From Bacillus cereus (GTDB lineage: Bacteria > Bacillota > Bacilli > Bacillales > Bacillaceae_G), in NCBI RefSeq assembly GCF_002584535.1, contig NZ_NUOT01000052.1:1-64000 (forward strand): a DNA stretch of 64,000 nt. The letters are read 5' to 3'. The notes beneath the pieces are model-generated. The model saw only the letters and a program-made list of their open reading frames with translations. It was not told the DNA's origin and ran no database searches. A program made the position numbers and the translations under genes. Within the stretch, counting starts at the first letter, position 1. Every line of letters begins with the position of its first letter. Of the stretch, positions 4,737 through 38,927 are shown piece by piece.

Positions 4737-4815
4737 TAAAACATGGCTCCGCACTTCCCATCCGACATACGAATATGATTGCATGCAATCATATTTGCTA
4801 ATATATATCATAACA

Positions 4816-4856
4816 AAATAAAAGAGGATTGCTGATTTAGCGATCCTCTTTTATTT
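4816..4856. terminator. Bidirectional terminator between yuzA and yugI
   Basis: A strong hairpin with arms AAAAGAGGAT and ATCCTCTTTT. T-rich tracts occur on both sides, so it can serve both convergent genes; it overlaps the yugI stop codon. Confidence 0.85.
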
Positions 4857-5490: not shown

Positions 5491-5495
5491 TTTAT

Positions 5496-5530
5496 GGACA
5501 AAACATATTCTGTTTTGTCCTTTTTTTATT
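5496..5530 (+). terminator. Orphan rightward terminator
   Basis: A perfect 10-bp stem GGACAAAACA/TGTTTTGTCC with a 5-base loop and a run of seven T residues. It points rightward, yet no rightward gene lies to its left; it sits at the 3' end of the leftward yugG-like remnant. Confidence 0.7.
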
Positions 5531-5532
5531 TT

Positions 5533-5728
5533 CTACAAACCTCTATGTCCTTTTACTTTTTTCCAATCTATATGTGTAACATAGTGAACAATAATTTTAC
5601 TCTCTCTAACTTCTCCACCATTTCTTTTACTCCTTCTATTTCTACATTTAACATTTCCGCTAAAGTTTCTACGGATAAACGACTGTTTTTCAAGACAAGC
5701 TAATAATTCTAATTTTTTCAGTCATCAT
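5533..5728 (-). pseudogene. Remnant of Lrp/AsnC-type regulator (YugG-like)
   Basis: A ribosome site AAGGAGGAAGGA and tandem ATG codons (5728, 5725) start a frame that breaks almost at once. Joining frames gives MTEK..LELLACLE, then SRLSVETLAEMLNVEIEGV, then IIVHYVTHIDWKKVKGHRG, the N-terminal HTH and first strand of an Lrp/AsnC regulator. At least three frame disruptions lie within 200 bp, two in A-runs, and the ligand-binding RAM domain is absent. Position next to yugI identifies it as a decayed yugG; the neighbouring yugH aminotransferase is gone. Confidence 0.75.
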
Positions 5729-5790
5729 ATTCCTTCCTCCTTCCTTTTATATTTGAAAAGAAGATTTTTTTAGAGAATTATGTAAAAATA

Positions 5791-5940
5791 GAGTGAAACT
5801 TTAATCAGTAGAAATTTTCTTCATCTATCGCTGATTATTAACCATCACCAATTGTGCTTTAACGGATAGCCTGTCTTCACCTTTCTTCCTCACTTCTCTC
5901 TAACTATTTAGGTGTGGATTTTACGGCTCGTTAAAGCGGG
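5791..5940. repeat. Repeat-like element with two nested inverted repeats
   Basis: TAATCAG (5802-5808) pairs with CTGATTA (5831-5837), and GCTTTAACG (5856-5864) pairs with CGTTAAAGC (5929-5937), reinforced by AGCC/GGCT inside. The start GAGTGAAACTTTAATCAG resembles the minus strand at 5370-5350. The layout suggests a dispersed intergenic repeat of the cereus group; I cannot confirm copies elsewhere. Confidence 0.45.
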
Positions 5941-5964
5941 GAAAAAGAAAAAGGGGCTGAAACC

Positions 5965-6927
5965 GTGAAACCAAAAGTATATATTGCTGAACGCGTTCCA
6001 AAGTCTGTAGAAACATATATCTCTGAGCATTGTGAATATGAAAAATGGGATAGTAATGAGAAGATACCTCGTGAAGTTCTATTAGAAAAAGTAAAAGATA
6101 AGCATGGTTTACTTAACTTTGGTGCAAAAATTGATGAGGAATTATTTCAAGCAGCTCCCCAACTAAAAGTTGTGAGCAATATTTCTGTTGGCTATGATAA
6201 TTTCGATTTAGAAGCGATGCGGGGCAAAAATGTGATTGGTACGAATACCCCATATGTATTAGATGATACAGTAGCCGATCTTGTTTTCGCTCTTATGTTA
6301 TCAGCGGGACGCCGCGTATGCGAGCTTGATTCTTATGTGAAAGATGGTAATTGGAATTCCGAAATTACAAAGGAGCATTTCGGAATGGATGTACATCATA
6401 GTACAATTGGAATTATTGGCATGGGCCGAATTGGAGAGGCTGTTGCTAAACGTGCCAAATTCGGGTTTGATATGAATGTTCTTTACTATAATCGTCGCCG
6501 TAAAGAAGACGCTGAACAAAAATTCGAAGCGACGTACTGTGATTTAAACACATTACTAGCGCAATCAGATTTCATTGTTCTTCTAACCCCTTTAACAGAG
6601 GAAACATACCATCTTATCGGCGAGAAGGAATTTTCATTAATGAAAGAAACAGCTATTTTCATTAATGCTTCCCGCGGGAAAACAGTCGATGAAAATGCAT
6701 TAATTGATGCACTGAAACAAAAGAAAATCTTTGCAGCTGGCATTGATACATTCACACAAGAACCAGTGGAAAAAGATAATCCGTTATTATCGTTAACAAA
6801 CGTCGTTACGCTGCCGCACATCGGATCTGCGACATTAAAAACGAGACACAAAATGGCAATGACAGCTGCCGAAAATCTAGTTGCTGGGTTACAAGGAAAG
6901 ACACCTCCAAATATTGTACGTGGATAA
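5965..6927 (+). CDS. D-isomer-specific 2-hydroxyacid dehydrogenase (glyoxylate/2-ketogluconate reductase type)
   Basis: 320 residues with the two-domain 2-hydroxyacid dehydrogenase fold. The nucleotide-binding motif GMGRIG lies near 152, followed about 22 residues on by NRRRK, whose arginines favour NADP(H). Catalytic residues are visible: Arg in ASRGKTVDE (~232), Glu in DTFTQEPVE (~260) and His in PHIGSAT (~282). Closest in character to Bacillus YvcT-type 2-ketogluconate/glyoxylate reductases; the substrate cannot be fixed from sequence. GTG start, weak AAGGGG site. Single gene with its own terminator. Confidence 0.88.
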   Translation: MKPKVYIAERVPKSVETYISEHCEYEKWDSNEKIPREVLLEKVKDKHGLLNFGAKIDEELFQAAPQLKVVSNISVGYDNFDLEAMRGKNVIGTNTPYVLDDTVADLVFALMLSAGRRVCELDSYVKDGNWNSEITKEHFGMDVHHSTIGIIGMGRIGEAVAKRAKFGFDMNVLYYNRRRKEDAEQKFEATYCDLNTLLAQSDFIVLLTPLTEETYHLIGEKEFSLMKETAIFINASRGKTVDENALIDALKQKKIFAAGIDTFTQEPVEKDNPLLSLTNVVTLPHIGSATLKTRHKMAMTAAENLVAGLQGKTPPNIVRG

Positions 6928-20929: not shown

Positions 20930-22486
20930 ATGGTAGGAACAGCCTCGCAAGACAAGGCAAAAAGATTTCTCATCGTAACATTATTTTTCACACTTGGGAC
21001 AGCTTTAGGCAAACTACTTGGATTTGCAAAAGAAGTTACACTTGGAGCTTATTTCGGTACAAACTATGCTGTAGATGCATATGTGGTTGCTTTAAATATA
21101 CCAACAATTGTATTCACTGGTATCACAGGCGCTTTTGCCTTCTCATTCATTCCTATTTTCATGGAACTAAAAGGCAAAGATCCTCTTAAAGCATATCGAT
21201 TTATGAATAACTTTTTAAATATTATTTTACTCATTTTCTTTATTCCGCTTTTGCTCATTGAACTGCAACCACATTTTTTTATTAAAATGTTTGCACATGG
21301 TTTACCCGAGCAAACAGCAGTATTGTCAGCCTATTTGCTGCAAATTATTTTTCCAACTGTATTTTGTACATTTTTTATTGATATCTTCAATGCTTATTTA
21401 AACAGTTTACATAAATTTCGAATTACAAGTATACAATGGATTGTGTTAAATGGGATTACACTACTTATCTTTGTTTTGCTCGTACAATGGATTGGAATTT
21501 ATGCACTTGCATTAGGTGTTATACTTGGAAATATTGTACAAACTATACTTGTCTACATTGCTTCTAGACGCGAAGGATACCATTATAAATTTTTAATTGA
21601 TTGGAAAGATCCTTCTTTAAAAAGGATGATGGCCTTAAGTATCCCTGCATTTATTACAAGTGTGTCTATTCAAATTAATTTACTCGTAGATCGAACGTTA
21701 GTTTCCGGACTGGAAGAAGGGTCTATTGCAGCTCTTAATTATTCTCAAAAGTTATATTTTATTCCACTTGGATTAATTGCTGCTCCTGTCTTAACTGTCA
21801 TGTACCCAAAATTCGTTGAATATGTAAACCAGGAGAATTGGAAACCATTCATTCAGCTCATTGAAACGAATATTAAAGTACTGTTATTTTTATTTATCCC
21901 AGTCTGTGTTTATTTTACATTCTTTACTGAAGAAATTGTAAAAGTGATTTATAACTATGGTGCATTCGGAAAGGATTCTATTGAGCTAACAGCAACCGCA
22001 CTACAATTTTATGCAGTCGCTGCTCTTATGCAACCTTTAAAAGATTTACTTGATCGCTTATTGTTTTCACTAAAACTGAATCGTTATATTATGTACGTAT
22101 CTATCGTTTCTATGGTTGTAAATGTTATATTATGTATCGTACTCGTTCATTATATTGGTTTAGCAGGTGCTGCACTTTCAACCTCTATTGCATCAGTAAG
22201 TACAGTATTTCTGTTATTATGGATGTTGCAAAAGTATATGAAAGAGAAAGAACAGATAAATTTGCACTACACTCGCTTTTTATTGAAATGTACCGTTGCA
22301 TCTTTTGTAAGTTTGTATGCTTCCAAACTACTGCTTCATTTCTCACATGATACAAAATTACTTATCTTATTAGCAATAACAGTCGGTGCTATCATTTACT
22401 TACTTATTACTTACATGTTAAGAGTAAAGGAGCTACAACAATTGCTATCGCTATTTTTAGGTAAAAGGAAGGATATAAATGAATAA
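20930..22486 (+). CDS. MurJ/MviN-family lipid-linked glycan flippase
   Basis: 518 residues, about fourteen membrane helices of the MOP flippase superfamily. The first 80 residues (GKLLGFAKEVTLGAYFGTNYAVDAYVVA) are close to MurJ, which flips lipid II. Here the gene heads a three-gene operon with a GT4 glycosyltransferase and an O-antigen-ligase-type polymerase, so export of a lipid-linked repeat unit is at least as likely as lipid II. It overlaps the next gene by eight bases. The ribosome site (AAGGAA) is weak. Confidence 0.85.
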   Translation: MVGTASQDKAKRFLIVTLFFTLGTALGKLLGFAKEVTLGAYFGTNYAVDAYVVALNIPTIVFTGITGAFAFSFIPIFMELKGKDPLKAYRFMNNFLNIILLIFFIPLLLIELQPHFFIKMFAHGLPEQTAVLSAYLLQIIFPTVFCTFFIDIFNAYLNSLHKFRITSIQWIVLNGITLLIFVLLVQWIGIYALALGVILGNIVQTILVYIASRREGYHYKFLIDWKDPSLKRMMALSIPAFITSVSIQINLLVDRTLVSGLEEGSIAALNYSQKLYFIPLGLIAAPVLTVMYPKFVEYVNQENWKPFIQLIETNIKVLLFLFIPVCVYFTFFTEEIVKVIYNYGAFGKDSIELTATALQFYAVAALMQPLKDLLDRLLFSLKLNRYIMYVSIVSMVVNVILCIVLVHYIGLAGAALSTSIASVSTVFLLLWMLQKYMKEKEQINLHYTRFLLKCTVASFVSLYASKLLLHFSHDTKLLILLAITVGAIIYLLITYMLRVKELQQLLSLFLGKRKDINE

Positions 22487-23546
22487 AATTATGTACCTTT
22501 TGAATTATGTCGGGGATGGTGGGTCGGAAAAATATGTCCTCGATTTAATTCAATCTATTGATCCAAAACGTTGTGTTCTTGTATATTCTACTCCTGGCCC
22601 TTTCTTACATAAGTTTGAGAAATTAAACATACCCATATATCGTATAGAAATGCACCATCCTTTTGATATACAAGCTGCAAGAAAACTTAAAAAAATAATC
22701 GCAAAAGAACAAGTAGATATAGTTCACGCACAATTTTTACGTGAGAACTATATTGCAATTTTAGCAAAACTATTAGGAGCATCCATACGTGTCATCTGGA
22801 CATATCATGTGGATGTTCCAATGGCACGTCCTTTAAGATGGTGCAATGCTTTTTTTACTCGTTACAATGACACGATTATTTGTATTTCACAGTTTATGAA
22901 ACAACAGCTTCTTGAAAAAGGGGTTCAAAAGGATAAATTAAAAATGATTTACAATGGTTTAGAAGACCCTTATTCAAATGCATTACCCGCTCTTCATAAA
23001 CCGATGAAAATCGCTGTAATTGGAAGGTTAAGCGAGGAAAAGGGGCAACCTTTTTTTATAAGAAGCTTACACAAGTTAAAAACACAATATCCGTCTTTAC
23101 AATGGCAATGTAATATTATTGGAGACGGGCCACTAAAAAGTCAATTAGAAAACTTAATCACGACGTTACAATTAGATGATTCCGTTTCTTTATTAGGTTT
23201 TCAAGATAACATTATAAAAGAATACGAAGCACATGATATAATCGTGATTCCGTCAAAAAATGAAGGATTATCCTACGTTGCAATTGAGGCAATTGCCATG
23301 AAAAAACCCGTGATTGCGACAAATATTGGTGGGTTACCTGAAGTTATTGTTCCAAATCAATCGGGTATCTCTATACCATATGGAGATGAAGAACAATTAG
23401 CAACTGCACTAGCAAGATTATTACAAGATGAAAAGCTATACCATTCCTTGGCAGAATGCGGACGCGAATATTATTTACAAAACTTCACTTTCTCTAAAAT
23501 GCTAACAGAAGTAAACAATATTTATCGCATACCATCATCATGTTAA
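22479..23546 (+). CDS. GT4-family glycosyltransferase
   Basis: 355 residues, GT-B fold. The N-terminal domain opens with a glycine-rich loop (GDGGSEKYVLD, ~10-20); the C-terminal domain has VIGRLSEEKGQ (~183) and the donor-binding EGLSYVAIEAIAMKKPVIA block (~263-281) of GT4 enzymes. It probably adds a sugar to the lipid-linked unit moved by the overlapping upstream flippase. Donor and acceptor unknown. AAGGAAGG precedes the ATG. Confidence 0.9.
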   Translation: MNKIMYLLNYVGDGGSEKYVLDLIQSIDPKRCVLVYSTPGPFLHKFEKLNIPIYRIEMHHPFDIQAARKLKKIIAKEQVDIVHAQFLRENYIAILAKLLGASIRVIWTYHVDVPMARPLRWCNAFFTRYNDTIICISQFMKQQLLEKGVQKDKLKMIYNGLEDPYSNALPALHKPMKIAVIGRLSEEKGQPFFIRSLHKLKTQYPSLQWQCNIIGDGPLKSQLENLITTLQLDDSVSLLGFQDNIIKEYEAHDIIVIPSKNEGLSYVAIEAIAMKKPVIATNIGGLPEVIVPNQSGISIPYGDEEQLATALARLLQDEKLYHSLAECGREYYLQNFTFSKMLTEVNNIYRIPSSC

Positions 23547-23558
23547 AGGAGACTATAT

Positions 23559-24932
23559 ATGATACACCTTACTCGATTTCATTATATACTGCTCAGCATT
23601 TTCTTTGTTACATTAGGGTTGTTATTCCCATCACCTTATACCGGGCTATTCATTTCAGCTTTATTAGCAGTCTCTGCTTTCCGAGATGAAAAGCTCGGTA
23701 TTGCTTATTTACTATTATTCATTCCGATGCGTCCTTTTCTTACAGCCTATAACGCTGGATTCAAATTGATCGGTTCTCTCATTATTCTCTCTTTGTTATG
23801 TAAATTGTTTTTACAATACCGACATAATATTTCAAAGCTATTTTCATTTCATTACTTTGAAATTGCATATTTTGTATTTTGTTTATTCGGATCTATTTTA
23901 GGAATAGTAAATGGCGTTTCCCTTACAGCGATTGTAATGCAGCTACATACCCTGTTACTATTTTACTTTGTATTCTATATTGTATCGCGGCTTTCTTTCC
24001 ATCATGATGATTTGTTATTTTTTGCAAAAATAACTTTCATCGCTTCCATTATCATTTCAATACAAGGTTTAATTGAAAAACTCTCTCTACGAAGTATGTT
24101 GCTTCCAGAGGCATGGAAAGAACTCGTATTAGCCCCTACAAATAAAATACGTATATACGGGATGGCCGGCGGTCCAAATGAATTAGCACTTTATTTAATA
24201 TTAGCATTTCTCATATCACTCTATTTATTGCGAGATGCTTCAACCAAAATGAAATATATCGTCTATATAGGACTCACGCTTATCGCAACGACGTTATTAT
24301 TAACATATTCACGTGGCGCTTTTTTAACAGTGATGATATTTGTAGTTCTTTATATCATCGTTTATAGACGTATACCGTATTGGAAATCACTACTTTCCGT
24401 ACTGCTAATATCATCCTTGTGTGCTGCAGGTATCTCTTCTGTGACGAATTATTTAGAAGGAGATGCTCTCGGAGCTAAACGTTTTTCAGAAGCTTTATCC
24501 GAAGAAACTGTTGAACTAAGTAAGCAAGATGGACGAATCTATTATGTGAAAAAAGCAGTAGAAATTTTCAAGGACAAACCGATTACAGGATATGGTTTCG
24601 GTACATTTGGTGATGCAGCTACTCAAACACATTCTTCACCAATTTATAAGCAGTACAATATTACATGGAATTTTTATTCGGATAACCAGTACATTCAGAT
24701 CCTTGCTGAAACGGGCCTCATTGGAGTCATCCTATGCGCTATATTTGCATTTGGTTTTTTAAGGCTGTTTTGGGAATATAGAAAAGAAGCACCATTTGGT
24801 CCCCTCCTCTTATATTTATGCGTCGGCGCTATCGTCGGAAGTGCTTTTTATAATATCTTAGAGAATGGAATCTTTATGATATATTTCTTTCTCACAGCTG
24901 GATGTATATTGAAAAAGAAAGAGGACTACTGA
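23559..24932 (+). CDS. O-antigen ligase/polymerase family membrane protein
   Basis: 457 residues with about eleven to twelve membrane helices and a large external loop (~300-385) typical of the WaaL/Wzy family, including GYGFGTFGDAATQTHS (~340) with the conserved His after a G-rich turn, and LTYSRGAFL (~248). It would join or polymerise lipid-linked glycans outside the membrane. Twelve bases separate it from the GT4 gene and AAAGGAG precedes the ATG. With the two upstream genes it forms a minimal flippase-transferase-polymerase set. Confidence 0.87.
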   Translation: MIHLTRFHYILLSIFFVTLGLLFPSPYTGLFISALLAVSAFRDEKLGIAYLLLFIPMRPFLTAYNAGFKLIGSLIILSLLCKLFLQYRHNISKLFSFHYFEIAYFVFCLFGSILGIVNGVSLTAIVMQLHTLLLFYFVFYIVSRLSFHHDDLLFFAKITFIASIIISIQGLIEKLSLRSMLLPEAWKELVLAPTNKIRIYGMAGGPNELALYLILAFLISLYLLRDASTKMKYIVYIGLTLIATTLLLTYSRGAFLTVMIFVVLYIIVYRRIPYWKSLLSVLLISSLCAAGISSVTNYLEGDALGAKRFSEALSEETVELSKQDGRIYYVKKAVEIFKDKPITGYGFGTFGDAATQTHSSPIYKQYNITWNFYSDNQYIQILAETGLIGVILCAIFAFGFLRLFWEYRKEAPFGPLLLYLCVGAIVGSAFYNILENGIFMIYFFLTAGCILKKKEDY

Positions 24933-24960: not shown

Positions 24961-27639
24961 TTATAATTTTTTCTGTTTTCTTGATAACACGAAACCAAGT
25001 AACAATGTAACAATTAAACTAATAGAAGAAACGATTGCTCCTATTACAAACCCTGGAGAAGTATATTTTAATTCAACTGTATGTGTTCCTTTTTCTAAAT
25101 CTAATCCAAGGAACGCATCATTTAATTTCAGTAACTTCGTCTCTTTTCCATCTACAGTCGCCTTCCAGCCCTTATCGTATGGAATCGATAAGAATAAATA
25201 ATCATCTTCTTTCACATCAATTTTTCCAGATACAGTACGACTTGTGTAGTTTGTTACGTCAAATGGCTGCTGTTTTAATTCATTCACTCGCTGATCCAAT
25301 GCATCTACATCAAGCCCATAGAATAATTGTTGTTCTAGCTCAATAGACTGATGGTTTACTTTTACTTCAACTTCTACTTTTTCATTTTCAAAATATCCCA
25401 AATCAAGGATACCGTTATTCCAATAATAACGCGGATACTCTGTAAATTTCTTACCAAGAGATTTTCCATTTACATATACTTTTGTAACATCAGTTGGCTC
25501 TACACGTAATTTCGTATACAACTGTTGTTTACCTTTGACATCAAATACATATTTAATGCTAGCTGTTTTACCATCTTGTTGTTTTATCAATTCAATTGGC
25601 TTTTGTTTCGTCTGAGCTATTTTTTTCTTTTCAGCAGCTAATTCTTGCTTCGTTTTTTCCTTTTCTACAACCTCCAAGTTATTATATTCTACAGAACTTG
25701 GTTCAAGTGGTTTATAGTAGCTAATATCTTGCCCATTTAATTTGCCAATAAATTTATTTTGTTCTTCAAAGGAATTTACATAGTTAATTTTTTGAACCTT
25801 TAACTTATCTTTTCCTTTTATATCAAATTCCTCTTTATTTACCATGTACCCAAATGGAAGAGCATTTTTATTCTCATATACATAGTTCTTACCTACACGA
25901 TCAATTTCGGACCATCCATACTTGTTAAGTGGTTCATCTGAAATCATATATTTCATTCCGAGCAATGCATCTGTAGAAATAATGCCTTTACCATTTTGTA
26001 AAATTAGAGCCTCTAAATAACCATAACCTAACTCCTGCATATATAAGTTTAAATGGCCGTTTGCTACGGAGTTAAAATGCGTCACACCTTTATACCCAAA
26101 ACGCAATGCGTCATTCCATGTAACGCCTCGCGTCGTTTCCATGCGATAAAGTCCTTTATCCTTTTCAGCGACTTTTTGAATTGTTTCTTCATATCTTGGA
26201 TATGGTGAAGCATACTCTTGACGATTAATATAACCGTACTCATACCCCATTAACTTAACCATATAGACTGTATTAAGTGCAACATCAAGTGATACCACGG
26301 CTACTAAAGCAAATGAGATTATTGCTTTATTTTTTTTCAAGCGTACTTTTGCAATTAACAATAATGCATATACAACAATAAAGAACACATTTGTAATAAT
26401 TTTATTCGATTGTATATAGCTTGGAGCTAAATTCCCAAGTAATAACAGCATAACTAGGTTAAAAAGAACAACCTTTTTTAAAGCCGGTATTAACTCCTCT
26501 TCAAACACCATAAATGTTCGAACTGCAACCAAAATGAGCATGAAAGAGAAAGTGAATGAATAACGATATGGGAAGTTCGTTGGTGGTTCAAAACCGTGCC
26601 AAGCTATATTTAAAAATGGAATTTCAAACGATAGAACTAAAAATAGTAAAACTGCTCCATATACGATCTTTTCTTTTAAAGCAATTTTCTTTGTTATAAA
26701 GAATAATGGAAGCAATAATAGTGTTAAAACACCAGCGTAAACATTTGGCATACCATTTACTGTTGTATCGACTACTCCGTTAAAGAATCGTGTATAGAAT
26801 TCTACAAGATCAAAATTAAATGCTGTAGAAAATGGTAGCTTTGCACGTTCCACAAAGTTACTCTTTAAGTCCATATATGTTGGTAAGGTAATAAAGGCAG
26901 ACATCCCTGCTGCTAAACCTGTTCCCATACAGAACCAAACAAATCTTTGTATGAATAACTTTATATTTCGAACATCGTACAGCACACAAAAACGTGCTAC
27001 AAAATAGATAAACGTAAATATCCCTACCATAACAGAGATATAAAAGTTTGTAATAAATGTAAGTGCTAAGCTAAACGTAAATAATCCATATTTCTTCTGT
27101 GTTAAAAGTTTTTCAACCCCTAACAAAATGAGAGGTAGTAAATAAATCCCGTCTAACCACATTACACAGAATGAATACACAGTTACAAATGACATTAATG
27201 CGTAAAAAGTTGAAAATAGTGTAATTGTGATTTCTCGGCGCTTCATCATATGACTTAAATAATACGTCATTGTTACACCAGCTAGTCCAACTTTTAATAA
27301 CGTCATTAACATAATCGCTTCCGGAATATGTGCACGATCAAAAAAGAGAATTAAAATGGAAAATGGACTTGCTAAATAATAGGCAAATACACCAATAAAA
27401 TTAAGGCCCATTCCACCTTCCCAACTATAAAATATGCTTTTTCCATCTTTGAAAACATCATATAAGTACGTGTAAAATTGTACATATTGTGTATGTAAAT
27501 CAGTTACAAGGATTGATTTTGATCCAAATGGCGCCACACCAAGTAACATGAAAACTACACCATAAATAGAAAAAGGAAGTAAGAAAGCAAATGTATATAA
27601 AACCTTCTTTTTCTTAAACAAATCTAACAGTGCTTGCAT
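24961..27639 (-). CDS. yfhO: YfhO-family membrane glycosyltransferase
   Basis: 892 residues. About thirteen to fourteen membrane helices in the first ~470 residues, then a large extracellular beta-rich part (~490-860) and a final helix. YfhO belongs to the GT-C-like set; in Bacillus subtilis it transfers GlcNAc from a polyprenyl carrier onto lipoteichoic acid. Here it is the last gene of a GT2-GtrA-YfhO operon, which supports the same three-step role, although the sugar and polymer are inferred. ATG 27639 lies four bases after GGAGGAG; the longer frame upstream has no site. Confidence 0.9.
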   Translation of the reverse strand: MQALLDLFKKKKVLYTFAFLLPFSIYGVVFMLLGVAPFGSKSILVTDLHTQYVQFYTYLYDVFKDGKSIFYSWEGGMGLNFIGVFAYYLASPFSILILFFDRAHIPEAIMLMTLLKVGLAGVTMTYYLSHMMKRREITITLFSTFYALMSFVTVYSFCVMWLDGIYLLPLILLGVEKLLTQKKYGLFTFSLALTFITNFYISVMVGIFTFIYFVARFCVLYDVRNIKLFIQRFVWFCMGTGLAAGMSAFITLPTYMDLKSNFVERAKLPFSTAFNFDLVEFYTRFFNGVVDTTVNGMPNVYAGVLTLLLLPLFFITKKIALKEKIVYGAVLLFLVLSFEIPFLNIAWHGFEPPTNFPYRYSFTFSFMLILVAVRTFMVFEEELIPALKKVVLFNLVMLLLLGNLAPSYIQSNKIITNVFFIVVYALLLIAKVRLKKNKAIISFALVAVVSLDVALNTVYMVKLMGYEYGYINRQEYASPYPRYEETIQKVAEKDKGLYRMETTRGVTWNDALRFGYKGVTHFNSVANGHLNLYMQELGYGYLEALILQNGKGIISTDALLGMKYMISDEPLNKYGWSEIDRVGKNYVYENKNALPFGYMVNKEEFDIKGKDKLKVQKINYVNSFEEQNKFIGKLNGQDISYYKPLEPSSVEYNNLEVVEKEKTKQELAAEKKKIAQTKQKPIELIKQQDGKTASIKYVFDVKGKQQLYTKLRVEPTDVTKVYVNGKSLGKKFTEYPRYYWNNGILDLGYFENEKVEVEVKVNHQSIELEQQLFYGLDVDALDQRVNELKQQPFDVTNYTSRTVSGKIDVKEDDYLFLSIPYDKGWKATVDGKETKLLKLNDAFLGLDLEKGTHTVELKYTSPGFVIGAIVSSISLIVTLLLGFVLSRKQKKL

Positions 27640-27731
27640 TATACTCCTCCATAACATTCTTTGTTAATAATTTATTACAAAAATATATGTATAAAAAACA
27701 ATAGCCGGCATAAAGCCAAGCCATTTGTTTT

Positions 27732-28154
27732 TTAAGCATTTTGACCATTTTCTACATCGGTCTTCTTTCTAAAAATAACATACTTACTTGCAAAATAATT
27801 AAAGACAACAACAATAATATTTGCAATAACTTTTGTAATTAAATCATTTATACCTAACCATTCAATAAATGCTATCATCGCAAAGAGATCTATAAAATAC
27901 GATAGGATACGAAATCCCATAAAATAAAAGAACTCCTTCAACGCATGAGTCAAATTAGCTTGTTGACTATTGAAGACATATTTTTTGTTTGTAATATACG
28001 CAAACAATACAGCTACAATCCACGCAATCGTTGTTGCTATTTTATAGTCCATTCCAACTAAAGTTGCACAAATGAAATAAGTTACAATATTAATCAGTGT
28101 TGTTAAACCACCAAAAAATAAATAATTAAATATTTCCTTCGTTTTATTATTCAC
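27732..28154 (-). CDS. GtrA/GtcA-family polyprenyl-phosphate sugar flippase
   Basis: 140 residues, four membrane helices, GtrA fold (FLFFGGLTTLINIVTYF-like start near residue 12, and FNYFASKYVIFRK near the end). These proteins are thought to flip undecaprenyl-phosphate-linked monosaccharides; GtcA serves teichoic-acid glycosylation in Listeria and Bacillus. GTG start after AGGGG. It lies 12 bp after the GT2 gene and 92 bp before yfhO on the same strand. Confidence 0.9.
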   Translation of the reverse strand: MNNKTKEIFNYLFFGGLTTLINIVTYFICATLVGMDYKIATTIAWIVAVLFAYITNKKYVFNSQQANLTHALKEFFYFMGFRILSYFIDLFAMIAFIEWLGINDLITKVIANIIVVVFNYFASKYVIFRKKTDVENGQNA

Positions 28155-28166
28155 ACTTATAATCCC

Positions 28167-29174
28167 CTAGTGATTGGATTTTACTTTACGATCTTCTACA
28201 CTATATAATTTTGCCATCTTTTTATCGCCATCTATATTTGTTACTTTGTCATCGTTATATTCATCTACAAAATATAGTGGACGCTGTTTTGTTTCGTTAA
28301 AAATACGTCCTAAGTATTCACCAATAATACCAATGGAAATTAATTGTACGCCGCCGATGAATAGAATCGCCGTCATCATGGATGGATATCCACTTACCGA
28401 CTCACCGTACATAAGCGTCTTAATAATGATCCAAAGCATGTAGACAAATGCTCCGAATGAAACAGTAAATCCCATGAATGATGCAAGACGGAGTGGAGCT
28501 GTTGTAAAGGATGTAATCCCTTCAATCGCAAGATCCATTAGTTTAAAATAATTCCACTTTGTTTCGCCTGCAGCACGTGGATCACGGTCAAATAAAATTT
28601 CTTTCTTATTATAACCAATCCAGCTAAACATTCCTTTTGTATAACGCTGTGTTTCGCGGATTTTCTTTAATGCTTCTACACAACGGCGATCTAATAAACG
28701 GAAATCTCCTGTATTTTCCTGAATAGGGATTCTTGTCGTTTTCTTTAATAAGCCATAAAATTTACCCGCTGTCCATTTTTTCGCCCATGACTCACCTGCA
28801 CGAGAGCGTCGTTTAGCGTATATATCATCATAGCCTTCTTCCCAGTATTTAATCATTTCAGGAATAAGCTCAGGTGGATCCTGTAAATCTGCATCAATAA
28901 TAATTACAGCATCACCCATTGCATGATCAAGACCTGCAATCATCGCTGTTTCTTTCCCAAAGTTTCGTGATAAATCCACATATGAAATGCGCTCATCGTG
29001 TTCTCTAAATTCTTTAATAATATCTAATGTACGATCTTTACTTCCATCATTCACAAATAAAATTTCAAATTTATAATTTGGAATTCCTTGAAATACACCT
29101 GTTAACCGACTATATAATTGATCTAATACTTCTTCTTCATTATATGCCGGCACTAAAATTGTAATGGTCTTCAA
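28167..29174 (-). CDS. GT2 polyprenyl-phosphate glycosyltransferase (CsbB/GtrB-like)
   Basis: 335 residues. A cytoplasmic GT2 domain (~1-220) has VPAYNEEE (~8), the GSKDRT loop and the metal motif in DADLQDPPE (~93); two C-terminal membrane helices (~230-255 and 265-290) anchor it, as in GtrB, CsbB and YkoT. It would load a sugar from a nucleotide donor onto undecaprenyl phosphate. The start is TTG 29174, eight bases after GGAG; an upstream in-frame TTG lies within the leader. First gene of the GT2-GtrA-YfhO operon. Confidence 0.9.
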   Translation of the reverse strand: MKTITILVPAYNEEEVLDQLYSRLTGVFQGIPNYKFEILFVNDGSKDRTLDIIKEFREHDERISYVDLSRNFGKETAMIAGLDHAMGDAVIIIDADLQDPPELIPEMIKYWEEGYDDIYAKRRSRAGESWAKKWTAGKFYGLLKKTTRIPIQENTGDFRLLDRRCVEALKKIRETQRYTKGMFSWIGYNKKEILFDRDPRAAGETKWNYFKLMDLAIEGITSFTTAPLRLASFMGFTVSFGAFVYMLWIIIKTLMYGESVSGYPSMMTAILFIGGVQLISIGIIGEYLGRIFNETKQRPLYFVDEYNDDKVTNIDGDKKMAKLYSVEDRKVKSNH

Positions 29175-29231
29175 AGAAGGTACTCCTTTCTTTTTCAAGC
29201 TTTCTCATAAAGAATAATTTATAAGCACAGA

Positions 29232-30205: not shown

Positions 30206-30542
30206 GCTTATAACCTCTTTCTTTCGTTCTTGGTTTATATTCGCATTCATCCAAGTAGTATTTATTCTTCTTACTTTTCCCTGCCACATCATATTTATTG
30301 GATATATTTTGTTCTTATCCAAATACGCGCAAATTTCCACATTATATATCTAGTAATCTATGTGTCATATTACAAGCTTTACATGTTACTTTCTTCACTA
30401 ACTGTAAAAAACACTCCGTACAAATTCTACATGATTGCCTCTTTATTCGTCAAGGTCACTTCATGCCCTCTATTTTACATTTGACACTTTATACATGTAA
30501 TTGATAGTCAAACATTGTGTAACCAATTATGATTAACCATTA
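30206..30542 (-). promoter_or_regulatory. galU leader and candidate promoter
   Basis: About 340 bases without a gene. On the minus strand TTGACG (30453-30448) and TAGAAT (30429-30424) are 18 bases apart, a plausible SigA promoter about 220 bp upstream of galU, implying a long untranslated leader. I see no known riboswitch in that leader. Confidence 0.45.
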
Positions 30543-30588
30543 ATAAAAAAAAGCCATTGATATATACATACTAACGGCTTTTTTCATT
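30543..30588 (-). terminator. Terminator of DUF2142/GT2/DUF2304 operon
   Basis: On the minus strand AAAAAAGCCGTT pairs with AATGGCTTTTTT (one G-T pair) and ends in a long T run, 7 bp after the DUF2304 stop. Confidence 0.8.
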
Positions 30589-30594
30589 CGTTTA

Positions 30595-30993
30595 TTATTC
30601 AATCGTTACTTTTTGTTTTTGTTCTTTATCGTTCATTGATTCAAGCTTTTTTTTCATGTTTTCATTTTCATACTGATAAATCGCAACAGTTTGTGTCAAT
30701 TCTTTAACTCGAATAGAAGACCTTGATACAACTACAGTTAAGAAGAATAACACACATGTAACAAATATAAATCCTAAAAAGAAAAGCGCATTAATCGGCG
30801 TAGCAACCCCTAAAGCATGTGAAACAGCATCAATCGATTTAGGGAAAATCCCGATAATTAAAATACCAATTAATACACCATACCATGTTAGTACATATTT
30901 CAATTCTAATTTCTCTTTACGAACCAAGTTCGTAAAGATCATTAGTCCTACTATAACACCTAAAATAATTAAAATTTGAAGGCGAATTGTCAC
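30595..30993 (-). CDS. DUF2304 membrane protein
   Basis: 132 residues, three membrane helices (about 5-22, 34-52 and 65-88) and a charged C-terminal coiled coil (~95-132). DUF2304 proteins are repeatedly encoded beside polyprenyl-phosphate GT2 enzymes but have no proven function; a regulatory or partner role for the transferase is inferred. GTG start overlapping the GT2 stop by four bases (GTGA), a sign of translational coupling. Last gene of the five-gene operon. Confidence 0.86.
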   Translation of the reverse strand: MTIRLQILIILGVIVGLMIFTNLVRKEKLELKYVLTWYGVLIGILIIGIFPKSIDAVSHALGVATPINALFFLGFIFVTCVLFFLTVVVSRSSIRVKELTQTVAIYQYENENMKKKLESMNDKEQKQKVTIE

Positions 30994-31706
30994 GAAACAT
31001 TCTCCTTTCTCTTTGGTTTCAATCTATCAATTGTAATCGCAAGCGTTACTTTAATCATATAGTAGATTGCTTTGTAATTTACAATTGAAGATGTCCCTCC
31101 AATTCGTTCTCGCATAAGCACAGGAACTTCTTCTACTTGATAATTGTTTCTTAATACAGACACGATACTCTCTGGTTCTGGATAATCTTTCGGATAATAT
31201 TCACAAAACTCATTAATGATCTTTTGATTCACCATTCTAAATCCAGAAGTCGCATCTGTAATTTGTTTTCCGGATACAATTTTAATTAGCTTTTCAAAGA
31301 AACGAATTCCTAATCTTCTTGTGAAAGAAGATTGAAAACCCTCTTTATTAATAAATCGTGAACCGATAACCATATCAACCTGCTTCTCCTCCATCGCCTG
31401 AAGAAGATCCCCTAAATATGCTGCATCATGTTGACCATCACCATCAAATTGTACAGCGATATCATATCCATAACGCTGGGCATATTTATATCCAGTCTGC
31501 ATACCTCCACCAATTCCTAAGTTAATTGGCAAACTTACATAGTTAAAATTATTATCTTTACAGATTTGCTCAGTATCATCTTTTGAACAATCGTTAATGA
31601 TAACATAATCAAAGTCTGGAGCATTCTTTTTTATATCCTCTACAACGTGTATTAAGTTTGTCGATTCATTGTAGGCAGGAATAATAATAAGCTTTTTTTT
31701 AAACAA
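30990..31706 (-). CDS. GT2 dolichyl/polyprenyl-phosphate mannose synthase-like transferase
   Basis: 238 residues, GT2 fold without membrane helices. Signatures: IIPAYNESTNL (~8), NDCSKDDTE, and the metal motif in VQFDGDGQHD (~87), with VIGSRF (~114). Such enzymes charge a polyprenyl phosphate with a hexose. It differs from the membrane-anchored GT2 at 28-29 kb and may depend on the coupled DUF2304 protein for membrane contact. TTG start after AGAGGAA. Confidence 0.88.
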   Translation of the reverse strand: MFKKKLIIIPAYNESTNLIHVVEDIKKNAPDFDYVIINDCSKDDTEQICKDNNFNYVSLPINLGIGGGMQTGYKYAQRYGYDIAVQFDGDGQHDAAYLGDLLQAMEEKQVDMVIGSRFINKEGFQSSFTRRLGIRFFEKLIKIVSGKQITDATSGFRMVNQKIINEFCEYYPKDYPEPESIVSVLRNNYQVEEVPVLMRERIGGTSSIVNYKAIYYMIKVTLAITIDRLKPKRKENVS

Positions 31707-31733
31707 CGGGAATTCCTCTCCTTGCTTTTCAAA

Positions 31734-33659
31734 TTAAAACAACTTTACAAGCCAAAATACAAACGCATATGTTAAAAATAATATTGCCGCTTTACTTGCA
31801 AATATAGCGACATCTGGTTTTTCAATCTTAAACTTAAAATGCTGTTGAACCAACAACAAAATAAACGGAATAATAGGAATAAAGTAACGACCTTGTATTC
31901 CCAAAATATACGGGCTTCCTACAGTTGTCCATGTCATATACAAGCTTAACATAACTAGCAATATTACACTAGCAATGCAAAATCTTAAACTCCATTTTTT
32001 CATCCAATCTAAAGTAGGAACTCCTTCTTTTTGATCAATGATTGCAATTATAACAAACACAATCGGATATAAATATAGAATCCCTTTTAAAGGTGTAGAT
32101 AAGAAACCAAAGACATTATACATTTCAATCCACTCATCTAATCCATGATCAAACGAACGAATAAATACTTTTAATGCTTCAAGCGGGTGATGCAACATGT
32201 AGCTAATTTGCCTTGTCGCAGATACATCTCCACTATTTAATCCGTCACCAACATATTTCATTACAAATATGTTCCAACCCGCAACAAGTATTGCCGCTCC
32301 CCCTATTACACCAATATTAAATAACCAATATTTCTTTTTCGTTCCATGTTTGGCTACGCCACCAAATAACATAAGCAGTAGCAGTGGCCAATACGTAAAC
32401 TTACAAAGTGTCATTATGATTCCTGATACCGCCATTGAGATAAATTCTGCCTTTGTAAGACCTTCATTATGAAACCATAGGCGCATTAGTAATGCGATGA
32501 ATATAAAGCTAGATCCCATTAATACCGCATCAGCAGACAAACTTGCCGCATGGAACATGATAATTGGTGCTAACATAAAGAACATAAATGTACGTCTCAT
32601 TACAGGCATTTTATACAATGCATATGCAGACATTGCAATGAATGCAAATAGATTTACTAAACGCCCTAATATATTTGCTGTCCAAATATTTGTATCAGCT
32701 AACATAGCTAGTTTAATCCCTATCGCTTGTGGGATATAAGGGATAAAAGTATATACCGCAGTTGTAGCTTGTGGCTCAAATACTTGCTGTTCTTTTGCAT
32801 CTGGTCTGATACTAAATTGTTTAACATAATCAATTGCATCTGGATTGATTTTTTCATCCCTTTTAACAGGATGAAGATAAGTATCTAATATTTTTTGGGA
32901 AACAAAGTACCCTACATTCCCTTCATGTTTTGGTGTAATTAAATTCCCTTGGGCAACGTCCTGACTCTTTAAGAAATGAACCCATTCATCAGAGGTTTGA
33001 TGAATAGGTGTATAAACAGCAAAAAAGCTCCCAAAAATCATTGCAATTAAAGTATACTCAACGACAATACGTTTTCCTACCCATACAAATAACGTCGCAA
33101 TTAGTACCGATAGAGTTAAAAGTACACCCCATTTCCAATAAGGCACAGAAGATAACTTATAGTCAACAACTAATACTTTATTGTCTTTTGTTTCACCATT
33201 CACATTTAACATTTTACCTTCTATAGGAAAAGCTGTAGTAATATATATTCCTTTATTTTCATCAAATTTAATTTTTTCTAACACTATCCTTAAATCTGTT
33301 GCTTCTTTTTGAATTCTTTCAGGAAGAGGAATATAAAGTTCTCCATCTTCTTTAAACATATCTGATGTAACATTAATTTCTTCCGTCTCATTTTTAGTAA
33401 TCAACTTCAATTCCCCAGTAAAATGGGCTTGTTTCACATCAGAATTCAAATGTAATGAAATTGCCTTCATATCTTTATGACTATTAGATAACTGTTGTGT
33501 AATCGTATCTCCCTGTTGCAGTTGAAATCCTTCTTTTGTATTTTTGAAATTGCCACCTTCTGATCTTAAAAGGCTAGATCGAGAACTGGCATACAATAAC
33601 ATTATTGTAAATATGACTAAAAAACTAATTAACCATTTGGTTCTTTTTTTCATCACCAT
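31734..33659 (-). CDS. DUF2142 family multi-pass membrane protein, probable GT-C transferase
   Basis: 641 residues. Helix 1 (~8-26) is followed by an extracellular domain (~30-170), then about eleven helices. The motif HQTSDEWVHF (~225) just after a helix resembles the acidic DE..H catalytic loop of GT-C enzymes that take sugars from polyprenyl phosphates. DUF2142 members occur in envelope glycosylation loci; the acceptor is unknown. The ATG at 33659 has AAGGAG eight bases upstream. Fed by the downstream GT2 and the upstream half-EamA pair. Confidence 0.82.
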   Translation of the reverse strand: MVMKKRTKWLISFLVIFTIMLLYASSRSSLLRSEGGNFKNTKEGFQLQQGDTITQQLSNSHKDMKAISLHLNSDVKQAHFTGELKLITKNETEEINVTSDMFKEDGELYIPLPERIQKEATDLRIVLEKIKFDENKGIYITTAFPIEGKMLNVNGETKDNKVLVVDYKLSSVPYWKWGVLLTLSVLIATLFVWVGKRIVVEYTLIAMIFGSFFAVYTPIHQTSDEWVHFLKSQDVAQGNLITPKHEGNVGYFVSQKILDTYLHPVKRDEKINPDAIDYVKQFSIRPDAKEQQVFEPQATTAVYTFIPYIPQAIGIKLAMLADTNIWTANILGRLVNLFAFIAMSAYALYKMPVMRRTFMFFMLAPIIMFHAASLSADAVLMGSSFIFIALLMRLWFHNEGLTKAEFISMAVSGIIMTLCKFTYWPLLLLMLFGGVAKHGTKKKYWLFNIGVIGGAAILVAGWNIFVMKYVGDGLNSGDVSATRQISYMLHHPLEALKVFIRSFDHGLDEWIEMYNVFGFLSTPLKGILYLYPIVFVIIAIIDQKEGVPTLDWMKKWSLRFCIASVILLVMLSLYMTWTTVGSPYILGIQGRYFIPIIPFILLLVQQHFKFKIEKPDVAIFASKAAILFLTYAFVFWLVKLF

Positions 33660-33677
33660 CTTTAAATCTCCTTATGT

Positions 33678-34016
33678 TTATTGAATGCAAAAAATTGCAA
33701 TACCCGCGATAATAATAATATTCCCTACTACTTTTCTTTTCGTAATTTTTTCACCAAGAAAATACCAACCGAATATTAAAATAATAACGTAACTAAGCGA
33801 TTCTATAACAGGCGCTTGCTTTAATGTGACACCTTTCATTGCAATAACATTTAAACCAGCATTAATTACAAATAAAGAGTATCCAACTATTACATATCGG
33901 TTCACATATTCTTTCCACTTTGTATCATAAGTGACTAACGTTGCTTTTTTTAGTAAAATTTGGGAGTAGTTTGCTAAAATAACACCAAAAATATAAAGCA
34001 AAACAAATTTATTCAT
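33678..34016 (-). CDS. Half-size EamA/SMR-type transporter, subunit 2 (ArnF-like)
   Basis: 112 residues, four membrane helices, one EamA repeat (KQAPVIESLSYVIILIFGWYFLGEKIT in the second half). Such half-size proteins act as dimers; ArnE/ArnF use this design to flip an aminosugar linked to undecaprenyl phosphate. It overlaps the preceding half-size gene by eight bases, suggesting the two form one transporter. The cargo is presumably the lipid-linked sugar made by the GT2 of this operon. Confidence 0.85.
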   Translation of the reverse strand: MNKFVLLYIFGVILANYSQILLKKATLVTYDTKWKEYVNRYVIVGYSLFVINAGLNVIAMKGVTLKQAPVIESLSYVIILIFGWYFLGEKITKRKVVGNIIIIAGIAIFCIQ

Positions 34017-34350
34017 CTTTTACCACCACAACAATCCCTATAATAATAACGATCGCACCGAGAACGTTATTCCATCTTATCGTATCCCCAAAGAATACTA
34101 CGGACCATAAAAGCCCCCATAAAATAATAACACCCCGATGTGAATACGCTTTAGATATTTCAAACGGTTTAATGACTTGTTGCCATATAATTGCATATCC
34201 AAACAAAAGGATAACAAGAACCATATAGGCCATAAGAAAAGAAATTGAACCGACTGAAAATTGCGCTGCCCATTTCATATACACCATTATGATAGAGTAT
34301 AAAAAAAAGGCAACATGTAAAAATACATAATGCTTAATAGATGCTTTCAT
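34009..34350 (-). CDS. Half-size EamA/SMR-type transporter, subunit 1 (ArnE-like)
   Basis: 113 residues, four membrane helices, single EamA repeat ending in a short charged tail (VVVKDE). First gene of a five-gene operon reading leftward, overlapping the second half-size gene by eight bases. I infer a heterodimeric flippase of the ArnE/ArnF kind for a polyprenyl-linked sugar; export of other small molecules cannot be excluded from sequence alone. Confidence 0.83.
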   Translation of the reverse strand: MKASIKHYVFLHVAFFLYSIIMVYMKWAAQFSVGSISFLMAYMVLVILLFGYAIIWQQVIKPFEISKAYSHRGVIILWGLLWSVVFFGDTIRWNNVLGAIVIIIGIVVVVKDE

Positions 34351-34575
34351 ACACTCAACTCTCTTTTTTAAAAATGATAGTTATATCATCACTTATTTTA
34401 CTAACTTTCATCCCCAAACTTTATTCATACAAAATAAAATTTTAACATAAATACTTAAAAATTTCATTCTGAACTTATATCGGCGCATTCCTTGCTTGTG
34501 TCTAAAATGTGACAATTTCAATTGTATACCCATGAATCATTCATATGAAAATTTCCTATTTCTATCTACTCAATA

Positions 34576-34615
34576 ACAAAAAAGCATGAACATCTCCATG
34601 TCCATGCTTCTTTTA
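34576..34615 (-). terminator. Terminator of pgcA
   Basis: Minus strand: AAGCATG/CATGCTT with an inner CAT/ATG pair and T6, immediately after the pgcA stop. Confidence 0.85.
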
Positions 34616-36510: not shown

Positions 36511-36546
36511 TACGTAATAAATATATTCTTAAATAGGGTGAATACA

Positions 36547-37155
36547 ATGCAAGAATGGGCACTGACAAAAACAATGAAACAGCATATTCAAGAAACTATT
36601 AAAGATATTTCTTTTGCACTTCAAGATATGCAAACTGCACTGGACAATAATAATGAATGTATTTTATGTAAAGTTGAAGATATACAAAAATTATTACTAC
36701 ATATCCAATCAAAAACGGCATCCTACTATGTCAAAACGTATCTATCTCCCTATACAGACTGTTACATTCATCTACTAACAGCAATCAGGCACTTATCTGA
36801 AAAACGGCATGGTGCTCTCATTATTGTGGAAAGAGATCAACCGGTAGAATCATTTATCCAATCCGGGATAGAACTACAAGCACACTTAACCGTTCCATTG
36901 TTAGAATCTATTTTTTATCCTGGAAACTCTCTTCATGATGGTGCTGTTCTTGTGAAAAATAACCATATTATATCCGCAGCCAATATACTTCCACTATCAC
37001 ATCAAACACTTGCATCGCATCAAAAATTAGGGACACGTCATCGCGCAGCAATTGGGCTTTCCGAAGTAAGTGATGCCCTTATTCTTGTTGTATCTGAAGA
37101 AACCGGAAAAACATCTTTTGCCTTAGCTGGAATGTTATATGCATTTTCACTATAA
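36547..37155 (+). CDS. cdaS: Sporulation-specific diadenylate cyclase CdaS
   Basis: 202 residues. An N-terminal helical autoinhibitory region (~1-60) precedes a DAC domain (~65-200) with LHDGAVLV (DGA at 131-133) and GTRHRAAIG (RHR at 164-166), the substrate-binding motifs that make c-di-AMP from two ATP. The helical N-terminus, and no CdaA membrane helices or DisA DNA-binding domain, identify CdaS. ATG 36547 follows AGGGTG; an in-frame GTG at 36538 overlaps it. Probably expressed in the forespore. Confidence 0.94.
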   Translation: MQEWALTKTMKQHIQETIKDISFALQDMQTALDNNNECILCKVEDIQKLLLHIQSKTASYYVKTYLSPYTDCYIHLLTAIRHLSEKRHGALIIVERDQPVESFIQSGIELQAHLTVPLLESIFYPGNSLHDGAVLVKNNHIISAANILPLSHQTLASHQKLGTRHRAAIGLSEVSDALILVVSEETGKTSFALAGMLYAFSL

Positions 37156-37787: not shown

Positions 37788-38927
37788 ATGCACAACAGTC
37801 TATTACAAAAAAGACGTTTATACTCTGAACAGCCACACAAAAAAATTTGGTGGTTAAAACCCATTCTAGCTCATTATCTTCTTTTAATTTTGGCCATTTT
37901 ATTACCCTATTATAATAACTTCCATGAAGGAATGACGTTAGAACACTTCAAGCATGCTCTTATTAATTGGGATAGTCTTTGGTACATTGAAATCGCTGAA
38001 AATGGATATGAATCAAGAAAAGCTACTGCGTTTTTTCCATTTGTACCAATACTAATCAAAGTCTTTGGCAACCCCTATACTGTCATTGCAGTGACGCAGG
38101 TCGCATTTTTTATTTGCTTATATTTGCTGAAGGAATTTTTCAAGCGCTGTAACATGAATGATTCCCAAATAAAAGCAGGCATTTGGCTTTTCGCAGTTAA
38201 TCCTTGTGCAATTTATTATGCCACTGTTTATACAGAAGTCTGGATCGTTCTTTTCTCCCTTGCTTCTCTTCACATGGCTATAAAAGAAAAATGGCTTTAC
38301 GCTTATATATTTGCCGCCATTTTAACATCCACCCGAGCACCAGCTTTATTATTCGGCATTTTTCCATTTACCCTTTTTATTATGTCCATATGGAATAAAA
38401 ATTGGAAATTGGTAAGAAATTCTCTATTATGGGGACTAAGTTGTACAGTTGGCTTAACAGGATATATGATTTACCTATATCGTGTATTCGGAGATCCGTT
38501 GGTTTTCTCAACGACACAAGCCGAAAACTGGGGTCATTACGCCGTTTTACCATGGATTCAAATCATTGAAGGCTTTTATGCAGCATTTACTGTAGACATA
38601 AGAGAAATAAGACAAGGGCTATGGATATCAGCAGTATTATTCGCCTTTTTTGGAATTGGATATATTTGGCGTTTGAAATCTCATTTAAAATGGGAAAGTA
38701 TTAGCGCAATGCTCTTTGTATGTATCACGATTATTTTTATATTCAGTTTTGGTACACGCGGTCTGCCGATGCATAGCACGCTCAGATATTTAAGTGTTTT
38801 ATTCCCAATTTATGCTATCATCCCACTTGTTGTACCTAAATCAATTCAACGGATAATTATTATTTTCTTTGCGATTGTATCGTTTATGAGCGCATGGAAT
38901 TTCACTCATCATATATGGAACCTGTAA
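37788..38927 (+). CDS. PIG-V-like GT-C mannosyltransferase family membrane protein
   Basis: 379 residues, about nine to ten membrane helices. WDSLWYIEIAENGYE (~62-76) holds the acidic loop expected of GT-C enzymes, followed by ATAFFPFVPILIK and NPCAIYYATVYTEVW (~143-157), features shared with PIG-V (GPI mannosyltransferase 2) relatives in bacteria. It may transfer a polyprenyl-linked hexose outside the membrane; acceptor unknown. GAGGAG precedes the ATG. Not in an operon. Confidence 0.75.
   Translation: MHNSLLQKRRLYSEQPHKKIWWLKPILAHYLLLILAILLPYYNNFHEGMTLEHFKHALINWDSLWYIEIAENGYESRKATAFFPFVPILIKVFGNPYTVIAVTQVAFFICLYLLKEFFKRCNMNDSQIKAGIWLFAVNPCAIYYATVYTEVWIVLFSLASLHMAIKEKWLYAYIFAAILTSTRAPALLFGIFPFTLFIMSIWNKNWKLVRNSLLWGLSCTVGLTGYMIYLYRVFGDPLVFSTTQAENWGHYAVLPWIQIIEGFYAAFTVDIREIRQGLWISAVLFAFFGIGYIWRLKSHLKWESISAMLFVCITIIFIFSFGTRGLPMHSTLRYLSVLFPIYAIIPLVVPKSIQRIIIIFFAIVSFMSAWNFTHHIWNL

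Follow-up and report, generated by a model that had tools for sequence, protein, structure and literature searches.

A five-gene operon of Bacillus cereus with the predicted parts of a GacI/GacJ-type transmembrane glycosylation system and an ArnE/ArnF-like heterodimeric flippase

RESULTS

A predicted transmembrane glycosylation operon

A stretch of 64,000 nucleotides from Bacillus cereus (contig NZ_NUOT01000052.1; the whole stretch is called the window below) carries five minus-strand open reading frames (ORFs), which run from 34350 to 30595 and encode, in this order, two half-EamA proteins (E1 and E2), a DUF2142 protein, a family 2 glycosyltransferase (GT2) and a DUF2304 protein. By analogy with characterized systems, this operon probably encodes a transmembrane glycosylation system of the GacI/GacJ type, in which an ArnE/ArnF-like heterodimer would be the flippase and the DUF2142 protein would probably act as last transferase. 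From protein families, gene linkage, predicted topology and recurrence in other genomes, we infer three activities. Inside the cell, the DUF2304 protein would keep the soluble GT2 at the membrane and activate it, and the GT2 would charge undecaprenyl phosphate with a sugar taken from a nucleotide sugar, as GacI/GacJ and WpsA/WpsB suggest. E1 and E2, predicted to form an antiparallel heterodimer of the SMR/DMT fold, would flip the lipid-linked sugar outward. Outside, the DUF2142 protein would use the flipped lipid-linked sugar as donor and transfer the sugar to a cell-surface polymer, and its N-terminal external domain may recognise the acceptor. A hexose from the UDP-glucose pool is a plausible cargo, for which the flanking pgcA and galU genes give a weak hint; N-acetylhexosamine (HexNAc) is equally possible. 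The features are as follows, with bias denoting the Lys/Arg (K/R) charge bias and lengths in amino acids (aa).

34009-34350, minus strand: E1, half-EamA, predicted first flippase subunit; 113 aa, 4 hydrophobic segments, K/R bias +3, predicted N-in/C-in, WQQ..K motif
33678-34016, minus strand: E2, half-EamA, predicted second flippase subunit; 112 aa, 4 hydrophobic segments, K/R bias -5, predicted N-out/C-out
31734-33659, minus strand: DUF2142 polytopic protein, candidate GT-C transferase; 641 aa, Pfam DUF2142
30990-31706, minus strand: GT2, predicted polyprenyl-phosphate sugar synthase without transmembrane (TM) anchor; 238 aa, TTG start, DGDGQH motif
30595-30993, minus strand: DUF2304 (GacJ/WpsB-type) membrane partner of the GT2; 132 aa, GTG start
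30540-30594, minus strand: intrinsic-terminator-like hairpin closing the operon; U-rich tract after it, z -4.5
34565-34615, minus strand: terminator-like hairpin behind pgcA, parting pgcA from the operon; U-rich tract after it, z -6.25

GT2 and DUF2304 as the predicted charging pair

The GT2 scored 91.6 bits against Pfam (cut-off 23.3), and its best NCBIfam models were all polyprenyl-phosphate sugar synthases (PpgS 98 bits, AglJ 70 and dolichyl-P hexose transferase 55), each far under its own cut-off. Its relatives in PDB were the Dol-P-Man synthase 5mlz (E-value 3e-7) and the glycosyltransferase sll0501 (5ekp, 2e-6), which we take to be a GtrB-type synthase. These comparisons agree with the earlier note on this DNA, which had called the GT2 a charging enzyme. 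In the alignment, its C-terminus shows no hydrophobic segment by eye, and its gene adjoins and overlaps the DUF2304 gene, as expected of a GacI/GacJ-type arrangement. The DUF2304 protein scored 95.5 bits against PF10066 (cut-off 25.5). Rv3632, a mycobacterial protein that returns below, is presumably a DUF2304 protein as well.

The DUF2304 domain is typical of GacJ-like proteins, whose genes directly follow gacI homologues (PMC8327497). WpsB boosts synthesis of GlcNAc-P-C55 by WpsA, and GacJ forms a complex with GacI (PMC10821137); PpgS likewise works with the assistance of Rv3632 (PMC9671496). DUF2304 is thus the GacJ/WpsB/EpaJ family, the partner of polyprenyl-phosphate sugar synthases of the GacI/WpsA type, and the statement in the earlier note that DUF2304 has no defined biochemistry does not hold, since GacJ/WpsB-type partners boost their synthase (PMC8327497, PMC10821137). 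By analogy with WpsA/WpsB and GacI/GacJ, the GT2 and DUF2304 proteins of the window would together make a polyprenyl-phosphate sugar, with DUF2304 raising the activity. Another locus (L115) has its DUF2304 match inside a single long ORF (4463-6400, 645 aa), which follows a GT2 immediately and also encodes a polytopic part (~13 hydrophobic segments).

The half-EamA pair

E2 reached 45.7 bits against Pfam EamA (cut-off 28.2), and a profile of 12 half-EamA sequences matched EmrE (5e-5) and SLC35B1 (4e-4). ArnE/ArnF is a proposed SMR-type flippase with a lipid-linked sugar as cargo (PMC9574504), and Rv3789 has also been proposed as an SMR-type flippase for lipid-linked sugars (PMC11127046). In archaea, half-size EamA proteins are described as short DMT variants without functional clue (PMC5898192). 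Several features of ArnE/ArnF-like proteins are present in the window: adjacent genes, two subunits of ~110 aa, four hydrophobic segments each, SMR/DMT-type sequence and opposite charge bias. Against the NCBIfam ArnE and ArnF models, E1 and E2 gave 15.6-19.6 bits and did not reach the cut-offs of 92-99. Judged by sequence, E1/E2 are ArnEF-like and not ArnEF.

In the SMR family, the Arg/Lys bias of singletons is centred at zero, as for dual-topology dimers, and >95% of adjacent pairs are oppositely biased (PMC9574504). Half-EamA proteins follow the same pattern. The bias of 38 singletons had a mean of 0.16 (standard deviation 1.66), with 19 at zero; for the three that stood at +4 or +5, the ORF start may have been misassigned. 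The window pair has +3 and -5, and similar values were found for a pair at a DUF2304 locus (G446, +3/-6) and for pairs at two DUF2142 loci (G405, +2/-3; G544, +8/-3). In all 11 of 11 pairs examined, the first subunit was positive and the second negative, the weakest value being -1 (L239). Because of this opposite bias, with the first subunit positive and the second negative, E1/E2 is predicted to be a fixed antiparallel heterodimer. Together with the gene overlap, the charge bias bears out the two-subunit flippase of ArnE/ArnF design that the earlier note had suggested.

In a tree of half-EamA proteins (46 rows), four second subunits formed one group (96/80), and the window subunits joined those of G544 (100/100 and 100/98). 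Several branches were very long, that of window E1 above all, and hence the deeper joins are unsure. The paired form seems to make up one or more lineages separate from the singletons.

Recurrence of the GT2-DUF2304-half-EamA set

We searched 398 genomes from the phylum of genome G132. This phylum is presumably Bacillota, since G132 came from the same order as a Bacillus locus. Matches to PF10066 occurred in 44/398 genomes, with 41 over the cut-off at 42 places, and C. glutamicum gave a DUF2304 match as control. A same-strand GT2 lay within 350 bp in 42/42 of these above-cut-off loci. A half-EamA lay within 5 kb in 35/42 loci (31 on the same strand, 25 adjacent), as counted with a profile trained on those same 42 loci. 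Less circular is the count with a profile of four E2 sequences, only one row of which came from these loci: it matched a short ORF in 33/42 (anywhere in the stretch, on either strand), and window E2 alone as profile scored in 17/42 on the same terms. None of the four profiles gave a half-EamA match in control DNA (80 loci around pgcA, 1.57 Mb), which came from mixed bacteria and not from matched genomes and held 19 GT2-class ORFs in 12/80 loci. The counts of 42 and 35 refer to the full ORF set; a narrower ORF filter gave DUF2304 in 37/42 and half-EamA in 24.

The protein in the transferase slot differs between loci, as a scan of ten polytopic neighbours showed. PMT_2 was over the cut-off in four (L122, L126, L144 and L148) and under it in one (L154); the rest gave DUF2142 in L113, a sub-cut-off DUF6020 in L117 and no match in three. 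In three loci (L119, L125 and L135), half-EamA and GT2-DUF2304 are on opposite strands, and the immediate neighbour of the half-EamA gene encodes a large polytopic protein (656-671 aa).

Census of paired half-EamAs

To avoid leaning on DUF2304 or DUF2142, a profile of four second subunits was run against the 398 genomes. It matched in 236/398 at an E-value of 0.001, and 12 places among the matches listed were examined, namely the six best non-seed places and six weaker ones (L245-L250). The nine best places comprised three seeds and six others, and all six others are pairs. A same-strand GT2 of this class was present in the stretches of 5/6 new pairs; all five are 311-328 aa long and have their own hydrophobic segments. 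L245-L249 are singletons, four of which (not L246) adjoin a GT2. Among the nine best non-window pairs, seven stand with a TM-anchored GT2, one (G446) with a DUF2304-type synthase and one (L240) with neither. At L240 (4469-10466), the paired half-EamA accompanies MBOAT and GDSL-like genes, which suggests another cargo.

The DUF2142 protein

Pfam DUF2142 (PF09913) matched at 191 bits (cut-off 30.1) and spans residues 208-600 only. A hydrophobic segment (7-25) is followed by ~150 residues (26-176) without any, and then by 11 more hydrophobic segments; the basic N-terminus suggests that residues 26-176 lie outside the cell. This N-terminal extension is also found in the relative from G132 (667 aa) and is absent in those from G405 (453 aa) and G322 (456 aa). 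In an alignment of eight rows, P218, D224 and H228 are invariant, in a predicted external loop after the segment 198-216. GT-C enzymes keep acidic residues in the corresponding external loop. DUF2142 proteins have been proposed as WpsJ ligases and WpsI polymerases, WpsJ being inferred among DUF2142-containing proteins. In view of these proposals, of PMT_2 proteins filling the same slot elsewhere and of the invariant residues, the DUF2142 protein is the probable last transferase.

DUF2142 is rarer than DUF2304 in the phylum of G132, with matches in 11/398 genomes, 7 of which exceed the cut-off; for the class of G544, the corresponding figures are 40/391 and 31. Thirty-nine stretches were scanned, of which L238 gave no ORF; the below-cut-off loci L175 and L176 and one above-cut-off place (G839) were left out. 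DUF2304 was no further than 5 kb away at 13 of the resulting 38 loci, once on the opposite strand, and six of the 38 had a same-strand half-EamA, in two cases a pair. The gene set raised in the earlier note recurs in part: G132, G322 and G1010 each have DUF2142, GT2 and DUF2304 on one strand together with one unpaired half-EamA, and all four families with a paired half-EamA, as in the window, were in none of the fetched loci.

The collections searched yielded no near relative of the window. Genome contigs held no close relative of the DUF2142 protein, a search of 4 genomes gave 0 matches, and 299 genomes from the order of G002 gave two, G132 (E-value 7e-41) and a weak one broken by stops. Among plasmids, 14 records matched the DUF2142 protein at 22-26% identity, none spanning 80% of the query, and the window DNA matched only at galU of two Priestia. 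Viral contigs had GT2 relatives in four loci, with no match to DUF2304, half-EamA or DUF2142 alongside. In the loci anchored on pgcA (best 80 of 595 stretches, best identity 69%), CsbB-, GalU- and GT2-like matches were found, and no DUF2142, DUF2304 or half-EamA.

Transcription unit and flanking genes

The earlier note had placed five genes on one strand, with 8-bp and 4-bp overlaps and one terminator, and every ORF was found where expected. E1 and E2 overlap by 8 bp, and GT2 and DUF2304 by 4 bp; the gaps are 18 bp between E2 and the DUF2142 gene and 27 bp between the latter and GT2. Shine-Dalgarno-like sequences, recognised by eye, stand before the start codons of DUF2142 (ATG), GT2 (TTG) and DUF2304 (GTG). 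The hairpin and U-rich tract at 30540-30594 would correspond to this terminator, and a second hairpin also bounds the upstream side. The two, the former before galU and the latter behind pgcA, enclose exactly the five genes, and for both 0/200 shuffles folded as well. A third stretch, behind galU, folded at chance level (z 0.6). A consensus terminator scan included neither bracketing hairpin among its 5 sites (3.8 expected), and promoter-like matches in a consensus scan were at chance level (35 found, 41 expected). From overlaps, spacing and hairpins, the five genes appear to be cotranscribed.

Upstream lies pgcA (named from sequence), and downstream galU, followed by genes for a CsbB-type GT2, GtrA and YfhO. 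The latter three form a classical module on the same strand (24961-29198), just past galU, so that two transmembrane glycosylation modules stand side by side in the window. A similar setting occurs in three genomes (L144, L146 and L147), where GtrA and a CsbB-type GT2 adjoin a GT2-DUF2304-half-EamA module behind which a polytopic protein is encoded; in L144, the one scanned of the three, this protein is PMT_2. Another GT-C candidate near the operon is a PIG-V-like (Mannosyl_trans2) polytopic protein at 37788-38927. Elsewhere in the window, DapF is identical to PDB 2otn at 265/288 positions, and a CdaS-like protein (36538-37155) to 2fb5 at just 123/204. These two structures presumably come from B. 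anthracis and B. cereus. The source, which gene content places in the Bacillus cereus group, presumably does not closely match the group's best-known members.

DISCUSSION

Several results weigh against our interpretation. E1 scored 23.9 bits against Pfam EamA, under the cut-off of 28.2, and the first subunits of pairs split over two places in the tree. No half-EamA lay within 5 kb in 7/42 DUF2304 loci, and no same-strand half-EamA within that distance in 32/38 DUF2142 loci. At L240, the 12.4-kb stretch contains MBOAT and GDSL-like genes beside the pair and lacks a GT2 of this class, and the lower-scoring L250 pair, with the same bias pattern, has no GT2 of this class either; hence half-EamA pairs may carry other cargo. 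For the DUF2142 protein, a PDB profile search for a GT-C fold gave two irrelevant weak matches only, hhalign against five PMT_2-type proteins from the same gene slot elsewhere gave a probability of 0.2%, and a single-sequence AlphaFold2 model was unusable (predicted local distance difference test, pLDDT, 42.6).

The GT2/DUF2304 pair might only prime an oligosaccharide, as lactococcal WpsA/WpsB do, with other glycosyltransferases extending it inside and DUF2142 polymerising or ligating it outside. We regard this as unlikely, although it is the strongest of the alternatives. The product of WpsA/WpsB is an acceptor for cytoplasmic glycosyltransferases (PMC10821137), the WpsJ and WpsI proposals for DUF2142 proteins fit this scheme, and Wzx-like, GT4 and ligase/Wzy-like ORFs, with families assigned by eye, lie at 20930-24932 of the window. 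However, the transcription unit contains no further glycosyltransferase. Moreover, a small SMR-like heterodimer would suit a single sugar better than an oligosaccharide; ArnE/ArnF, the precedent, reportedly carries one sugar (PMC9574504).

It is quite improbable that E1/E2 is a small-molecule exporter of SMR type that lies in a glycosylation operon by chance, with another protein flipping the lipid, such as the neighbouring GtrA or a Wzx-like protein. SMR relatives do export drugs, polyamines and guanidinium (PMC9574504), a candidate GtrA flippase is encoded at 27732-28154, and the seven DUF2304 loci without a half-EamA point the same way; the 35/42 loci where a half-EamA lies within 5 kb of GT2-DUF2304, and the GT2 of this class in 5/6 non-seed loci of the census, argue against it. 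We give very little probability to an acyl or otherwise modified carrier, in place of a sugar-phosphate lipid, as the cargo of E1/E2. The genes beside the L240 pair and an Acyl_transf_3 gene after the L244 pair speak for such a cargo, but the window operon has no acyltransferase, and a GT2 of this class lies near 8/9 highest-scoring non-window pairs (three seeds and six new ones). A transmembrane glycosylation system with E1/E2 as its flippase accordingly remains our preferred interpretation.

On a wider scale, we lean, with some reserve, to the view that half-EamAs are a widespread, hitherto unassigned flippase family of Bacillota that acts on undecaprenyl-phosphate sugars and is coupled to synthases of the GacI/GacJ type. 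The common form would be dual-topology homodimers, and fixed antiparallel heterodimers would occur in separate paralogous lines. In the window, the heterodimer form, which elsewhere mostly accompanies TM-anchored GT2s, would be combined with a synthase of DUF2304 type and a DUF2142 transferase. If true, this wider family is the more interesting outcome. The flippase step of undecaprenyl-phosphate sugar pathways has often been left unassigned or merely presumed: the flippase of the PpgS pathway is given as unidentified in PMC9671496, and PMC11127046 offers no direct flippase evidence for the systems it discusses. With the recurrent GT2-DUF2304-half-EamA set, many of these pathways gain a small candidate flippase, in homodimer and paired form, and the flippase step becomes testable with four or five small genes. 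In addition, our analysis corrects the view of DUF2304 as biochemically blank, and DUF2142 joins the transferases worth testing.

The overall logic is already known from GacIJKL, WpsAB, ArnE/ArnF with partners and CsbB-GtcA-YfhO. Among the matches listed from the open-licence literature, no paper links DUF2304/GacJ with an EamA or SMR flippase. The GtsABC galactosylation system of B. anthracis was considered as a candidate and rejected: its set is GtsA, GtsB and a PMT-2-type GtsC (PMC8035078), versus DUF2142, DUF2304 and the half-EamA pair here. PpgS/Rv3632 of mycobacteria and ppgS/cgp_0393 of Corynebacterium share with the window operon a GT2 of the top NCBIfam model and a helper protein, and differ in having arabinogalactan as acceptor (PMC9671496).

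CsbB/GtcA/YfhO has the common logic of charging undecaprenyl phosphate, flipping and transferring outside (PMC8035078). That system uses a membrane-linked GT2 and a GtrA-type flippase, whereas the window operon has DUF2304 and the half-EamA pair, and no GtrA among its five genes. The operon therefore differs in its parts from the adjacent CsbB/GtrA/YfhO genes, and the earlier note was right to separate the two modules. ArnE/ArnF, the aminoarabinose flippase, is alike in its paired SMR-type subunits of ~100 residues and in its reported lipid-linked sugar cargo (PMC9574504); the window differs by its sub-cut-off ArnE/ArnF scores and has no Arn pathway genes among the five.

WpsA/WpsB/WpsG/WpsJ of lactococci resemble the window operon in a GT2 activated by a small membrane partner (PMC10821137) and in the presumed DUF2142-type WpsJ. 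The lactococcal system differs in its Wzx-like flippase and in the extension of its primed lipid to an oligosaccharide (PMC10821137). Another close system is GacI/GacJ/GacK/GacL, which adds the side chain of the group A carbohydrate of Streptococcus pyogenes with a GT2 and small GacJ-type partner, a flippase and a polytopic transferase (PMC8035078, PMC10821137, PMC8327497). The flippase GacK is of Wzx type, and GacL has been classed as PMT-2 (PMC8035078), whereas in the window two half-EamA proteins, and no Wzx-type protein, occupy the flippase slot and DUF2142 stands in place of PMT-2. The window operon would work like GacIJKL without being a copy of it. As read from sequence, it is set apart by its components, namely a synthase of DUF2304 type, an ArnEF-like heterodimer and a putative DUF2142 transferase.

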